From the NCBI GenBank assembly GCA_946479745.1, contig CAMLGZ010000025.1:1-61238 (forward strand): 61,238 nucleotides of DNA, read 5' to 3'. Under the pieces are notes generated by a model. The model ran no database searches. It worked only from the letters and a program-made list of their open reading frames with translations, and had not been told where the DNA came from. The position numbers were made by a program, and so were the translations under genes. Of the stretch, positions 11,383-24,217 are shown one piece after another (position 1 is the first letter of the stretch; every line of letters starts with the position of its first letter). The stretch is from an uncultured Pseudoxanthomonas sp. (GTDB lineage: Bacteria; Pseudomonadota; Gammaproteobacteria; Xanthomonadales; Xanthomonadaceae).

Positions 11383-14300
11383 ATGAACAAGATCTTCAGC
11401 AAGGTATGGAACAAGAAGCTCGGCCAACTGGTCGTGGCGTCGGAACTGGCCAGCAGCGATATCACGGGAGCAGCGGCTTCTAACGGAACGGTACTGCGGC
11501 GCCACGCGCTGACGGCGGCATTGTGCGTATTGCTGTTGTCGCCGGGTGTGCATGCGGGAACTTCGGTCCAGATCGATCAGGTTGGCAACGGCACTGCTAC
11601 GGGTAGTGGTGGCTCCGTACCCGCCACCTCGGGCTCGTTCTCGATCGCCATCGGTGGCGGCAGTGGCGCCAACGCGCAGAACATCAGCGTTGCGGTAGGT
11701 GATGCGTCCAATGCCACCGGCCAGGATTCCATTGCAGTCGGGCGCCGCGCCAATGCGACGGGCAACCAGTCCACGGTAGTGGGCTCCGATGCCGACGCAA
11801 CCGCGGACGGAGCGACGGCAATCGGCCAATTCGCTCAGGCAACTGGCGTCAACAGTACGGCACTGGGTGTAAATTCAGTAGCAGGCCAAGCCGGCGCGGT
11901 TGCGTTGGGCTCGGGGTCGACGACGGCCGTGGCGGTGGGGACATCCAGCACGAGCATCGCGGGCACAAGCTACAACTTCGCCGGTGGCGCGCCCACCAGC
12001 ACGGTCAGCATCGGCGCAGTGGGTACGGAACGCACTCTTACCAACCTGGCTGCGGGCCGTATCAGCGGCACCAGCACCGATGCCGTCAACGGCAGCCAGC
12101 TATTCGCTACCAACACCGCTATCGATAATCTGGCGACTACGGTCGATGCCAACGCGACGCACTACTTCAGCGTCAACGACAATGGCGTGCAGGGCAACTA
12201 CAACAACGATGGTGCCACGGGCATCAATTCGGTAGCTATTGGCATGAACTCGATTGCCACCAATACCGACGGTTTTGCCGCAGGCAACGGTGCCCAGGCG
12301 ACAGGTACGCGTTCAATCGCCATCGGTCTTAATGCACAAGCGATCGCCAATGGCGGCCTGGAGGACAACAACATAGCCATTGGCGTGAACTCCATGGCCG
12401 GAGAGCAGGGTGCAACGGCTGTGGGCAACGCTGCGCAGGCGCAGGGCGTCAACTCATCGGCATACGGCAATGGAGCGATCGCAGTCGCCACGGCAGACGC
12501 CGCATTCGGCACGGGCGCGCAGGCGTCGGGTGGCTCGGCTACCGCGATCGGCTCTAGCGCCACGGCCACTGGCCGCGTCTCGACGGCGGTCGGCTACCTC
12601 TCGCAGGCAACTAATGTTCAAGCGACAGCCGTCGGTGTGGCGGCCAACGCCTCCGGCATCAATGGAAGCGCGTTTGGTGTATTGGCCAATGCGAGTGCTA
12701 ACGACAGCACGGCAGTGGGTAGCGGCGCCCAAGCGACGGCTTTGAGATCAGCCGCGCTGGGGTATCACGCAAATGCGACTGGCGTAGACAGCGCTGCAGT
12801 GGGTAGCAGCAGCCAGGCGACGGCTTTGAATTCAATTGCGTTGGGCGCCAGCAGCGTTGCCAGCGCGACGAATGGCGTTGCCTTGGGTTCGTCCTCGGTG
12901 GCCAATACGGCGGCCGGCGTGGTGGGTTACGACCCTGTTACCGGTCTGCCCTCCACCAATACCGGCAGCACCTGGGTCAGTACCTTGGGCGCGGTAAGCG
13001 TGGGCGGCAACGGTCAGACCCGCCAGATCACCAACTTGGCGGCCGGCACGCTGGCGACCGACGCGGTCAACGTGGCGCAGTTGCAGGCGGCGCAGGCGGA
13101 AGCCACCACGCACTACTTCAGCGTCAACGACAACAATGTACATGTCGCCAACTACAACAACGATGGCGCCACCGGCATCGGCGCCGTAGCGGCAGGCATG
13201 GGCGCCAGCGCGACCAACTGGCACGGTATCGCAGTGGGCGAGAATTCGACGTCTACAGCCGAAGCCGCCACGGCGATCGGTTACGGCTCGGTCGCGTCTG
13301 GCTTTGATTCCACGGCCACCGGAGCTTTATCGAGCGCCACCGGCAGAGTTTCGGTGGCCTACGGCTTCGCTTCTCAGGCCACCCTTGATTACGCCGCTGC
13401 CTTTGGCCCCTACTCTATAGCTACTGGTGCTGTGGCCACCGCAGTCGGCTTTGACACCCATGCCTTCGGTGTGGGCAGTGCGGCCATAGGCGCCGACAGC
13501 GAGGCGACCAATGACCATGCCATCGGCATCGGTCACGCTGCGCATGCGACGGGCAACAGCGCCACGGCTATCGGCTGGGAAGCCCGAGCCAGCCAATTCC
13601 GAGGCATCGCTATCGGCGATCATAGCCTGGCCTCCAACACAAACAGCGTCGCCATGGGCGCCAATAGCGTAGCCTCCGGCGTCAACGGTATCGCCATCGG
13701 CACCGGCGCACAGGCCAACGGCTCACAGTCCATCAGCATCGGTACGGGTAATATCGTCAACGGCAACAATTCGGGTGCCTTCGGCGACCCCAGCATCATC
13801 AACGCGGCGGACAGCTACTCGGTCGGCAACAACAACACGCTGGCCGCCGGACAGAATGATGTGTTCGCCTTCGGCAACAACATCACCACCACCATCAGCA
13901 ACTCGGTGGCGTTGGGCAGCAACTCGGCCATGAATGCCGCGCTGACCACCCAGTCCGCGGGCACCACGGCGTACAACAGCGCCAACCTCAACGGCAGCAC
14001 CTACAACTTCGCCGGCGGTACGGCGGTGGGTGTGGTCACCGTGGGCGGTGTGGGCAGCGAGCGTCGTATTCAGAACGTGGCCGCTGGTCTGGTCAGCGCC
14101 ACCAGTACGGATGCCATCAACGGCTCGCAGCTGTATGCGTTGATCACCGATGTCAATGACAAGGCGCCGCATTTCTACAGCGTCAACGGCGTCCCAGCTA
14201 ACGGCAACTACAACAATGACGGTGCCACAGGCACTGAAGCATTGGCGGCTGGCGTTGGCACGACTGCTGCGGGCACCTTTGCCACGGCGGTCGGCCACAA

Positions 14301-16065
14301 CGCCAGCGCATCGGGCAGAGAAGCGATTGCAATCGGCAATGACGTAAATGCCGCTGGTATCCAGGCAGTCGCAATAGGCACGGCGTCCGCTGCGAACGGA
14401 GACGGCGCCCTTGCCATTGGCAATGTGGCAAGCGCCAGTGGCGTTGGTTCTGTTGCGGTAGGCAACAGCAGCTATGCGGGTGCGCTGGGAAGCACGGCCC
14501 TTGGTTTGGGTGCGGTGGCGGAGTTCCAGGATTCGGTCGCCATCGGCAACGGCGCAGGGTATGGCGGCGTCCGTTCGGTGGCGGTGGGCGCGAGCACCAC
14601 GGGTGCGGCCGATTCGACCGCGCTGGGCTACAACGCCAGCGCCAACAGCGTGGGCGGCGTGGCGCTGGGTGCCAACTCGGTCTCCAATACGGCGGCTGGC
14701 GTTGCCGGCTTTGTGCCGCTCGGTGCAAGTGCGGGGGATACGGCCGCCATTCTGGCCACCACCAGCACCTCCGGCGCTGTCAGCGTGGGCGATCCGGGTA
14801 CTGGACTGTTCCGCCAGATCACCGGCGTGGCCGCCGGTACCGCCGACAGCGATGCGGTGAACGTGGCGCAGTTGCGGGCTGTGCAGCAATCCGTCATCGA
14901 CAGCGAGACCCACTACTACAGCGTCAACGACGGTTTAGTGCAGGGCGGCAACTACGACAACGACGGCGCCACCGGCTTGAACGCGATGGCGGGCGGCGTG
15001 AATGCATCTGCCGCCGGCCAGAGTGGCGTGGCAATGGGCTACAACAGCAACGCGGCGGCGAATAACTCGGTAGCCGTGGGTGCGGGTTCGCAATCCACGG
15101 TGGACGGTGGTGTTGCATTGGGCGCCGGTTCGGTTTCCAGCACGGGTTCCGGCCAGGCCGGTTACGTGCCCACGGGCGCAACCGCTGCGCAGACGGCGGC
15201 CATCGTGGCCACCACCAGCACTTCCGGCGCGGTCAGCGTCGGTGATGCCAGCACCGGGCTGTACCGCCAGATCACCGGCGTGGCCGCCGGTACCGCCGAT
15301 AGCGATGCCGTCAACGTGGCGCAGTTGCGTGCGGTGCAGAGTGGTGTGACCACTGATATCACCAACATCCAGAACGGTGCCGATGGCATGTTCCAGGTCA
15401 GCCAGGATCACAATGCTCCCAAGCCGATGCCGACGGGCACCAATTCGGCGGCTGGCGGCGCGGGCGCAGTGGCCAGCGGCAACAACTCGCTGGCCGTGGG
15501 CAACGATAGCCGCGCAACGGCCACCAACAGCACGGCGTTGGGAACCGGCGCACAAGCCACGCACGCCAACAGTGTGGCGGTGGGCAACGGTTCGGCCACC
15601 ACGGTGGGCGCGCAGACCAACTACAACGCCGCGTACGTGGGCAGCAGCACTTCGACGGGCGAAATGAACGTCGGCGGCCGCACCATCACCGGCGTGGCAC
15701 CGGGTATCGCTGGTACCGACGCGGTCAACGTCAATCAGTTGACCGGCGGCGTCAACTACGCCATCGACCAATCGAAGGCCTACACCGACGCACGCATCAC
15801 CAATATCGAAGGCGATGTGTGGTCGATGAAGCGCGACTTCCGCGGTGCGACATCCTCGGCAATGGCCATGGCAGGTTTGCCGCAGGCCTACCTGCCGGGC
15901 AAGAGCATGTTGGCGGTTGGCGTGGGCGGCTACCAGGGCGAGTACGGCATGGCCGTGGGCTTGTCGGGCATCACCGAGAACGGCCGCTACGTCTACAAGG
16001 CTGCGGCCAGCGGCAACACCTCGCGCGATTGGGGCTTCTCCGTCGGCGCCGGCATCCAGTGGTAA
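11383..16065 (+). CDS. Trimeric autotransporter adhesin (YadA family)
   Basis: The 1560-residue surface adhesin starts with the extended signal region of type Vc autotransporters ([18 protein letters not shown]; hydrophobic core about 41-58, ending VHAG). The passenger is built from dozens of YadA-head repeats (AIG..A.ATG..S.A.G). These are broken by HIM/neck motifs such as [36 protein letters not shown] and [16 protein letters not shown], and by four HY.SVN...NDGATG modules. The last 70 or so residues are the YadA membrane anchor, ending in GAGIQW. A strong site (AGAGGGGAAAAACC) precedes ATG 11383. It probably mediates attachment or biofilm formation and is followed by an OmpA lipoprotein. 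Confidence 0.95.
14755..15339 (+). repeat. Near-identical 132-bp direct repeats within the adhesin gene
   Basis: Copies at 14755-14886 and 15208-15339 encode the same 44-residue HIM/neck block with only three amino-acid differences and few silent ones. They are 453 bp apart, a multiple of three, so recombination between them would delete or duplicate 151 residues without breaking the frame. Confidence 0.88.
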
Positions 16066-18910: not shown

Positions 18911-18940
18911 GTTCCATCGGCGAAACGATGGAACTCTTTT
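18911..18940 (+). terminator. T-tailed hairpin in the rpoH leader
   Basis: A perfect 9-bp stem (18911-18919 with 18926-18934, loop GCGAAA) is followed by TCTTTT. It sits 33 bp before the rpoH start codon. It may end upstream transcripts or act as an attenuator in the rpoH leader. Confidence 0.6.
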
Positions 18941-18945
18941 ACCGT

Positions 18946-18972
18946 TTAGCAGTCCAACTCCGCGACTGCTAA
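18946..18972. promoter_or_regulatory. CIRCE-like operator (HrcA site) abutting the rpoH start codon
   Basis: TTAGCAGTC, nine bases, then GACTGCTAA forms a perfect inverted repeat. The heat-shock operator CIRCE is TTAGCACTC-N9-GAGTGCTAA, so this differs by one base per arm, and the two changes compensate each other. Spacer length is exactly nine. With the flanking T and A the stem is 10 bp and ends directly at the ATG (18974). HrcA repression of rpoH is inferred. Confidence 0.72.
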
Positions 18973-18973
18973 A

Positions 18974-19861
<888 letters not shown>

Positions 19862-21874: not shown

Positions 21875-24217
21875 TCAGTAAAGATCCAGCGGATCCACAT
21901 CCAGCGACCAGCGCGTCTTGCGCGCTTCGGGTAGTTCGTAGATAGCGGGCAATGCGGAATCCAGCAGCGCATGCAGCTCGCGGCGGCTGGGCGATGACAG
22001 CAGGAGCTGCGCACGGTGCATGCCGGCGCGCCGTGACATGGGGGCGGGAATAGGCCCCTGGATTTCAATATGTTGAGCCCCTCTCCCAACGGGAGAGGGG
22101 TTGGGGTGAGGGTACGGCGAAGTTATTGCCCTCCCAGCCGTCACGGACTTCGCCGCACCCTCATCCGTCGCTTCGTGCCACCCCGTATCAAGTACGGGGC
22201 GGGCTCTTCTCCCGCTGGGAGAAGAGATTGCCAATACCGACTTGGCCGCATGCAAAAAAGCATTCGCAGCATCGATGTGCTTGGCTTCCGCACGCAACAA
22301 AGCCAGATGCGCGAACGGCGGAAATCCTGCAGCCTGCCGCTGTTCCAGTTCGTTATGCGCGAAGGCGTGATAGCCGCCATTGATGAGCGTGTTGAGCAGA
22401 GGATGGTCTGGATGGTGGGTCTGCAGCCAAACCTCTCCGGGTTTTTGCGCGCGCCCTGCACGCCCTGCTACCTGGATGAGTTGTTGGGCGAGTTTTTCGC
22501 CCGCGCGGAAGTCGGCCGAAAACAATCCTTCGTCCACACCCACCACCACCACCAGAGTGAGATGCGGCAGATCGTGGCCCTTGGCCAGGATCTGCGTGCC
22601 GATCAGGATGCCGGGGCGGTCGCCCAGTTTTTCCAGATGGCCGGCCAGCGCATCGCGACGCTGGGTAGTGCTGCGGTCGATGCGCAGCACCGGCACGTCG
22701 GTGAATTTCTCCATCAGCATTTCTTCGATGCGCTCGGTGCCTATGCCCTGCGGCTGCAATGCCAGTCCGCCGCAATCCGGGCACGCCGGCGGCACGGCCT
22801 GGCGCGCACCGCAGTGATGGCATTGCAGCCGGCGACCAGCGCCGTGCACGGTCATCGGCGAGCTCTTCGTCGGAGTGCCGCAACGTTTGCATTGCGCGCT
22901 CCAGCCGCAGTCGTGGCACATCAATACCGGCGCATAGCCACGGCGGTTCTTGAATACCAGTACTTGCCCGCCGGCCCGCAACGCGTTGGAAATCGCGGCC
23001 ATCGTTTCCGCGGACAACCCCGCCTCGAGAGGGCGCTTGCGCAGGTCCTGCACGCGCACCGAAGGCGGCTTGGCCTCGCCTGCGCGGTGAACGAGCCGCA
23101 GATGCGCGTAGCGGCCGCTCATCGCGTTGTGCAGCGATTCCAACGAGGGCGTGGCGCTGCCCAGAATGACCGGCACGTCCAGCGCCTTGCCGCGGACCAG
23201 TGCGAAATCGCGCGCGTGGTAGCGCATGCCGTCCTGCTGTTTGTAGCTGCCGTCGTGTTCCTCGTCGACGATGATCAGGCCCGCTTCGGGCAACGGCGTG
23301 AACACGGCCGAGCGCGTGCCTACCGCCACCCGCGCTTCGCCGCGTGCGAAAGCGGCCCAGCCGCGCGCGCGCGCGTTGTCGTTCAAGCCCGAATGCAGCG
23401 CCAGCACCGGTACACCCAGGCGTTGCCGGAAGCGCCCCAGCGTCTGCGGAGTCAGGCCGATCTCCGGCACCAGCACCAGCGCCTGCTTGCCGCGCCGCAG
23501 ACAGTCGGCGATGGCGTGCAGGTAGACCTCGGTCTTGCCGCTGCCGGTCACGCCATCCAGCAGCAACGGCGCGAAACCCCGCACGGCCAGGATCGCGTCC
23601 ACCGCCGTTTGCTGTTCCGCATGGAGCTCGGGGCCACTCTGCGGCAACGGCGCAAGGGTCGAGGCGGGGACCGCCACACGTTCGACCAACCCGCGCTTGG
23701 ACAAGGCGCGCGCCGCAGTGCGCCAGTCGTCCATCTGCAGATCCAGGCTGTCTTCGTCGCGCGCGCCGGTGTGCAACAGGTCGGCGAAACGGCGCGGACG
23801 CGTGTCCTGCCGCAGCCGTTCCCTGCGGGTGGCCCCCGCCTCGGTCAGCCGCCAGGCCCAGGCGTGCGTATCCGGCACCGGCTCGCCCTGGCGCAGCAGC
23901 GTCGGCAGCGCAGTGCCCAGCACCTCGCCCAGCGGTGCGTGCGTGTAACGCGCCAGCCAGCGCAGGGAAGCCAACAGCTCGCCGTGCAGCAGTGGAGCCG
24001 CATCCAGCAAGTCCAGTGCCTGGCGCAACTCAGGTCCGTCGCCGGTCGCCGCACCAATGCCGGCCACCACGCCGGTCATTTCGCGCGAACCGAACGGCAC
24101 CCGCACCCGTTTGCCTATGTCGTCGGCACCGGGCGAATGGTCGGGTGGCGGCAGATAGTCGAACCACTGCGGCAAGGGCAGGGGCAGGACGATCTGGAGG
24201 GTGGCATCGGAGCGCAT
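21875..24217 (-). CDS. priA: Primosomal replication helicase PriA with in-frame repeat insertion
   Basis: The 780-residue helicase reloads the replication machinery at stalled forks. Seen are the 3'-DNA-binding domain (1-110), Walker A GVTGSGKTE (222-230), Walker B VDEEHDGSYK, the zinc module (CHDCGW, CKRCG, CHHCG, CPDCGG) and the helicase C-terminal motif QVAGRAGRAQ. The family is usually about 730 residues. The excess is a block of about 50 residues (about 664-713) encoded by a dispersed repeat at 22078-22227, rich in Pro, Ser and Arg. It lies ahead of the conserved PAPM.RR end domain, so the protein should still fold. Two DnaA boxes lie 120-142 bp upstream. Confidence 0.94.
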   Translation of the reverse strand: MRSDATLQIVLPLPLPQWFDYLPPPDHSPGADDIGKRVRVPFGSREMTGVVAGIGAATGDGPELRQALDLLDAAPLLHGELLASLRWLARYTHAPLGEVLGTALPTLLRQGEPVPDTHAWAWRLTEAGATRRERLRQDTRPRRFADLLHTGARDEDSLDLQMDDWRTAARALSKRGLVERVAVPASTLAPLPQSGPELHAEQQTAVDAILAVRGFAPLLLDGVTGSGKTEVYLHAIADCLRRGKQALVLVPEIGLTPQTLGRFRQRLGVPVLALHSGLNDNARARGWAAFARGEARVAVGTRSAVFTPLPEAGLIIVDEEHDGSYKQQDGMRYHARDFALVRGKALDVPVILGSATPSLESLHNAMSGRYAHLRLVHRAGEAKPPSVRVQDLRKRPLEAGLSAETMAAISNALRAGGQVLVFKNRRGYAPVLMCHDCGWSAQCKRCGTPTKSSPMTVHGAGRRLQCHHCGARQAVPPACPDCGGLALQPQGIGTERIEEMLMEKFTDVPVLRIDRSTTQRRDALAGHLEKLGDRPGILIGTQILAKGHDLPHLTLVVVVGVDEGLFSADFRAGEKLAQQLIQVAGRAGRAQKPGEVWLQTHHPDHPLLNTLINGGYHAFAHNELEQRQAAGFPPFAHLALLRAEAKHIDAANAFLHAAKSVLAISSPSGRRARPVLDTGWHEATDEGAAKSVTAGRAITSPYPHPNPSPVGRGAQHIEIQGPIPAPMSRRAGMHRAQLLLSSPSRRELHALLDSALPAIYELPEARKTRWSLDVDPLDLY
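22078..22227. repeat. Dispersed CTCTCCC/GGGAGAG repeat inserted in frame in priA
   Basis: The element has a palindrome at each end: CCCCTCTCCCAACGGGAGAG at 22078-22097 with GGG following, and TCTTCTCCCGCTGGGAGAAG near 22205-22225. The middle includes TTGGGGTGAGGG. Its length of about 150 bp is a multiple of three, and it leaves the priA frame open. Related CCTCTCCCC...GGGGAGAGG arms flank the REP cluster at 30102-30270. Exact borders are estimated. Confidence 0.8.

Follow-up and report, generated by a model that had tools for sequence, protein, structure and literature searches.

The window, a stretch of 61,238 nucleotides of DNA from an uncultured Pseudoxanthomonas species, carries on its forward strand an open reading frame for the heat-shock sigma factor RpoH (sigma-32), assigned with the family model TIGR02392 (410.6 bits against a cut-off of 323.1), whose product is 88% identical to the RpoH of Xanthomonas pisi and 98% identical to that of the closest relative, genome G075. 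Directly upstream, on the same strand, positions 18946–18972 read TTAGCAGTC-CAACTCCGC-GACTGCTAA, an inverted repeat with a nine-nucleotide spacer, which is proposed here as an HrcA operator on the basis of its sequence match and of its loss together with hrcA in relatives. The likeness reported in the first-pass annotation was confirmed: the arms agree with those of CIRCE, TTAGCACTC-N9-GAGTGCTAA, at 16 of 18 positions, the spacer length is exact, and both differences preserve complementarity in a copy that is perfectly symmetrical, with T18945 and A18973 forming a tenth base pair. It is the single match in the window to the pattern TTAGCASTC-N9-GASTGCTAA at up to three mismatches, against a mean of 0.02 in 100 shuffles. 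Two further features of the window may be recorded, namely a protein of 1560 amino acids encoded at 11383–16065 of the forward strand, resembling the trimeric autotransporter adhesins and containing many YadA-type repeats, with NCBIfam matches all below the curated cut-offs, and, at about 22000–22200 of the reverse strand, a PriA frame containing near its C-terminus SPYPHPNPSPVGRG, which looks by eye like the in-frame insertion of a translated repetitive element.

The left arm of the repeat and its spacer take part in a promoter-like element of the sigma-E type. The -10 box of sigma-E promoters has the form TCnnA, and the test pattern consisted of a GGAACTT -35 box, 16–17 nucleotides and TCnnA; the window reads GGAACTC-N16-TCCAA, with the -35 box at 18930–18936 (6/7 to GGAACTT) and the -10 box, GTCCAA at 18952–18957, made up of the final three left-arm bases and the first three bases of the spacer. 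In the relatives, GGAACTT-like words show a sharp peak at -16/-17 from the repeat, and by this offset the TC of the left arm and the third spacer base make the -10 box. Of the 89 family sites with a -35 box (at least 5/7), 88 have A as the third spacer base, against none of the 15 without it; among the matches listed for the wider collection the contrast is weaker but of the same direction (24/26 loci with a -35 box at 6/7 or better, 4/18 without). On the tree, the -35 box changes eight times and the spacer A nine times; the independent pairs are three, all agreeing (p 0.25), and all such tests, performed on the supported branches of the HrcA tree, have too few pairs for any significance. The window thus contains every element of the sequence pattern of a sigma-E (ECF) promoter, and sigma-E dependence is predicted.

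The G of the left arm converts CTCnnA to GTCnnA, and GTC may suit sigma-E better than CTC, a claim with few cases behind it. Across eight genomes the pattern is not enriched (26 matches against 65 in the reversed control); of the 22 matches outside rpoH, 14 have G before TC, and many lie in long open frames. The candidates preceding secreted-looking proteins were picked by hand from the 13 of the 26 matches that were inspected. Among them are an FKBP-type isomerase of G075 (L407; Pfam FKBP_N and FKBP_C), preceded by a GGAACTT-N16-TCnnA-like word with GTC in a region that may be coding, as an open frame of 355 amino acids without a Pfam match covers it, and a secreted-looking protein without a Pfam match (L401), which has a GTC-type word upstream and look-alikes in five of the eight genomes. 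A sigma-E-like word with G before TC was noted at L401, L402, L404, L407, L411 and L412, while one other secreted-looking case, L408, has TTC instead of GTC.

A second palindrome, with the family consensus GTTSCAT-NN-ATGSAAC, is present as a degenerate copy at 18911–18926 of the forward strand (extended, 18911–18934), directly upstream of the -35 box, where its score is that of a terminator-like hairpin followed up by a run of T. Among the 104 rpoH sites of the family, 78 have their best copy of this palindrome just upstream of the sigma-E -35 box, and in relatives it lies at -35 to -38 relative to the repeat; its C/G changes preserve the symmetry, and genomes that lack hrcA or the sigma-E boxes have it as well; perfect copies were found in 13 of 119 genomes, 11 of these at rpoH.

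The right arm, extended by AAT, gives an extended -10 element of the sigma-70 type, TGCTAAAAT (TGC-TAAAAT, 18967–18975, hexamer at 18970–18975), which would place the transcript start on or close to the ATG at 18983. The promoter scan returned TTAGCA-18-TAAAAT with TG as one hit, against a shuffle mean of 0.4, and the final T of the hexamer, although outside the operator, is invariant across all 104 family sites. The repeat had been described as lying against the rpoH start codon; an ATG at 18974 does abut it, whereas the true start is probably the next in-frame ATG, so that the gene would occupy 18983–19861. Among the 65 family genomes that, like the window, have G at the variable left-arm position, 61 have an ATG 7–9 nucleotides past the final T of the -10 hexamer, as do 29 of the 39 genomes with C there; by contrast, the first ATG is missing in 23 of the 65 left-G genomes and out of frame with the next one in 12 more. 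A Shine-Dalgarno-like word within 60 nucleotides was seen in 1 of 65 left-G genomes versus 21 of 39 left-C genomes, some of the 21 words being inside the reading frame. The lack of a visible ribosome site, pointed out in the first-pass annotation, fits with the rpoH message from the sigma-70-type promoter being probably leaderless, and such a predicted start accounts for the missing site. The predicted starts are at about 18982–18983 for the sigma-70-type promoter and at about 18962–18965 for the sigma-E-type promoter, the latter of which would leave about 20 untranslated bases.

In a sample of 119 Lysobacteraceae (Xanthomonadaceae) genomes, RpoH was found in 116, and the comparison with related rpoH upstream regions proposed by the first-pass annotation recovered the same repeat at 104 of these 116 (threshold of at least 15/18 to the consensus, with C or G allowed at the variable position). 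In a wider collection, in which sites preceded by fewer than 45 bases were omitted from the count, 44 of 80 rpoH loci among the matches listed have a CIRCE-like repeat (15/18 or better, no more than 330 bases upstream), most of these repeats being canonical; no repeat was found at the enterobacterial, Vibrio and Shewanella rpoH loci among the matches listed. The repeat at rpoH is widespread and not peculiar to the window; Luteimonas terricola (L002) is another member of the family with a site at rpoH.

The hrcA gene was found in 115 of the 119 family genomes, including G075, from which the presence of hrcA and groES in the source organism of the window is inferred by relatedness. In three of the genomes without it (G015, G041 and G067), recN, identified by NCBIfam matches to its product, adjoins grpE, the interval containing neither hrcA nor a run of N, and these genomes have no intact operator at rpoH or groES, a groES site not being found within 300 bases upstream. 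The rpoH repeat in G015 and G067 has many changes, and that of G041 has a changed left arm and a spacer of 10 bases. The fourth genome without an hrcA hit, G101, has an intact rpoH operator and one further site but likewise no grpE, so that a gap in the assembly probably explains the absence of its hrcA. With G101 dropped, genomes lacking any site at up to two mismatches are 3/3 of those without hrcA and 2/115 of those with it (p 4e-5; with G101 kept, p 1.4e-4, kinship being ignored in both tests). Two genomes outside the set of 119, G003 and G007, appear, as far as their assemblies go, to lack hrcA and have no site either.

The association is not strict in the converse direction. While the rpoH site was lost in 3/3 clean deletions of hrcA, nine genomes (G024, G051, G066, G084, G087, G092, G109, G114 and G115) keep hrcA and the groES site without an intact rpoH site, the arms being retained with a shortened spacer in G084 and G115 (six bases in G115), and G046 has hrcA with the groES site not found. 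The deletions agree with HrcA control of rpoH, and the nine hrcA-bearing genomes speak against its being strict; judged from these sequences, such control looks common but dispensable. The nine genomes may be regarded as possible natural escapes of rpoH from HrcA.

These genomes also bear on the view that the CIRCE at rpoH is decaying and survives solely on account of the overlapping promoter boxes. The right arm does double as the -10 box and the left arm as the sigma-E -10 box, each left-arm T is replaced by C in 13 family sites, nine hrcA-bearing genomes manage without an intact site, and G041, devoid of hrcA, retains the right arm and both promoter boxes. However, the part of the left arm outside the promoter boxes is fixed (GCA in 104/104, each base of TTA in 89–94/104), the window copy has kept its full symmetry, and G015 and G067, also devoid of hrcA, have kept TGnTAAAAT and lost much of both arms. 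We regard simple decay as unlikely.

The departure from CIRCE concerns one position, the seventh of the left arm and the third of the right arm. By left/right state, the 104 rpoH sites comprise G/C (58), C/C (20), the canonical C/G (19) and G/T (7), with none in which only the left arm is changed. Of 106 groES upstream regions examined in relatives, 102 have a site of at least 14/18, the rest being the three hrcA-less genomes and G046; the states of these sites are C/G (42), C/C (32), G/C (16), G/G (11) and C/T (1), so that 60 of 102 groES sites have this position changed in at least one arm. In the 90 genomes with both sites, a canonical rpoH site is paired with a canonical groES site in 13/13, whereas a changed rpoH site occurs with any groES state. 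Since canonical rpoH sites always accompany canonical groES sites and none at rpoH is changed in the left arm only, the arm change is read, with kinship uncorrected, as a family-specific stepwise rewriting in which rpoH leads and the right arm changes first at rpoH.

These data make it quite improbable that the variant arms at rpoH serve a repressor other than HrcA. This explanation would agree with G075, whose groES site retains CACTC, canonical at position 7, where rpoH has CAGTC; against it are the recurrence of the change at groES, the common occurrence of sites mixing one arm of each kind, and the fact that the three hrcA deletions have left neither the rpoH nor the groES site intact. By analogy with G075, the rpoH site of the window type could be a weaker HrcA site than that of groES.

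A residue of HrcA, x in VGS[x]TL, varies along with the arms. In 82 genomes it is Arg in 17 of 18 with a canonical rpoH site, Arg in 10 and Gln in 5 of 15 with a one-armed C/C site, and Gln in 45, Lys in 3 and Arg in 1 of 49 with left G; when hand-labelled genomes are added, the counts become Arg in 22/23 canonical and Gln or Lys in 51/52 left-G genomes. As the cause of the arm change the residue was rejected in spite of this strong raw association, because it changes only twice on the HrcA tree and Gln is also found at this position in the HrcA of T. maritima. Among the genomes with Gln or Lys, 47 of the 49 that have the sigma-E boxes carry left G, against 1 of the 5 that lack them (kinship uncorrected); among those with Arg, 1 of 28 does. 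The independent pairs are four for sigma-E versus left G (typically one agreeing, none opposing), two for the HrcA residue versus left G (at most one agreeing) and three for the groES right arm versus the rpoH left arm (none agreeing, 0–2 opposing). From the split by sigma-E boxes within the Gln/Lys genomes, a more elaborate scenario may be put forward tentatively, being somewhat more doubtful than probable: the rpoH element of 45 bp would combine an HrcA operator, a sigma-E promoter and the promoter of a leaderless mRNA, and its code would have been rewritten together with the repressor, the right arm first and then, after an Arg-to-Gln change in the winged helix-turn-helix of HrcA, the left arm where the sigma-E promoter was kept, as the left-arm G would also improve the sigma-E -10 box, with the intermediate states of this recoding, constrained by the overlapping promoter, preserved in the family.

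The proposal of the first-pass annotation that rpoH is under HrcA is supported by comparison, in so far as the repeat recurs at orthologous rpoH genes, hrcA is present in 115/119 genomes and the repeat is lost where hrcA is deleted. The other half of that proposal, an RNA thermometer whose stem would hold back translation of the rpoH mRNA until melted by heat, is very improbable. The stem does fold in silico at -12.4 kcal/mol (18946–18985) if transcription starts upstream, but the predicted starts lie inside or downstream of the repeat and would leave the left arm out of the mRNA. The stem is unbroken in just 56 of 104 orthologous repeats (the other 48 have one or more mismatches, in 20 cases at the changed position), there is no visible ribosome site for it to hide, and loss of the repeat tracks the HrcA protein in 3/3 clean deletions.

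The reading that we consider likely takes the repeat for an HrcA operator that lies across the rpoH promoter region and blocks two overlapping promoters; heat would free rpoH, sigma-E would add to its expression, and the arm changes would be lineage-specific. Sequence comparison shows the repeat and its conservation, its disappearance along with hrcA, and the nested motifs of the two promoters with their covariation; from these we infer that HrcA binds and represses, that the promoters are used, where transcription starts and why the arms changed. At normal temperature, HrcA on the repeat would keep RNA polymerase off both the sigma-E-type promoter, with its -10 box in the left arm and spacer, and the sigma-70-type promoter, whose extended -10 box of the right arm and AAT would give the leaderless mRNA. 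In other organisms HrcA is inactivated by heat or by unfolded proteins; the same inactivation would free rpoH here, and envelope stress would add to rpoH expression via sigma-E. The differences from the classic CIRCE would then be a lineage-specific rewriting of the HrcA site.

The number of sites at up to two mismatches per family genome is two in 82 of 119, one in 31, none in 5 and three in 1, the two of G075 being those of rpoH and groES. Upstream of hrcA itself, no CIRCE was found in 33 of 33 loci taken as family members (best at most 11/18), and the 2 of 39 loci overall that have one are both outside the family; a crude sigma-32 pattern was found upstream of hrcA at 0/39, which says little. 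From these site counts the HrcA regulon of the family seems to consist of groESL and rpoH, and hrcA-grpE-dnaK, if under RpoH, would close a negative loop. In Xylella, according to a review (PMC11764788), the heat-shock genes depend on RpoH. If the proposal is true, a repressor responding to protein folding and an envelope-stress sigma factor directly control the heat-shock sigma factor through one overlapping element, and rpoH is probably the meeting point of two stress signals in one short DNA stretch. Such wiring is unlike that of E. coli, in which the level of RpoH is set mostly after transcription. The presence of canonical, one-armed and two-armed operators in one family also makes the stepwise evolution of an operator and its repressor open to binding assays.

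Among known systems, the element resembles the CIRCE/HrcA operators that many bacteria have at groESL and hrcA-grpE-dnaK-dnaJ in its 9-bp arms, 9-bp spacer and promoter overlap and in the presence of hrcA in relatives, and differs from them in that both arms of the window copy are changed at one position, the target is a sigma-factor gene and the family hrcA lacks a CIRCE. The work of Permina and Gelfand from 2003 is the likeliest earlier source for CIRCE at rpoH in beta- and gamma-proteobacteria. Control of rpoH by HrcA has precedents, as HrcA sites at rpoH are already published: upstream of rpoH of Geobacter sulfurreducens, a CIRCE was likewise predicted as an HrcA site, although with canonical arms at -51 and, in the accessible part of that paper, with no nested sigma-E promoter mentioned (PMC545781). 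The nesting of an HrcA operator with a sigma-E-type promoter at rpoH looks new, no description of it having been found in the open-licence literature, which is weak evidence. The sigma-E component recalls the P3 promoter of E. coli rpoH, which, as stated in PMC8103513, is driven by RpoE with a GGAACTT -35 box; direction of rpoH by sigma-E is proposed here from sequence, and, unlike in E. coli, whose control genome gave no HrcA hit, the -10 box in the window is built from the operator itself.
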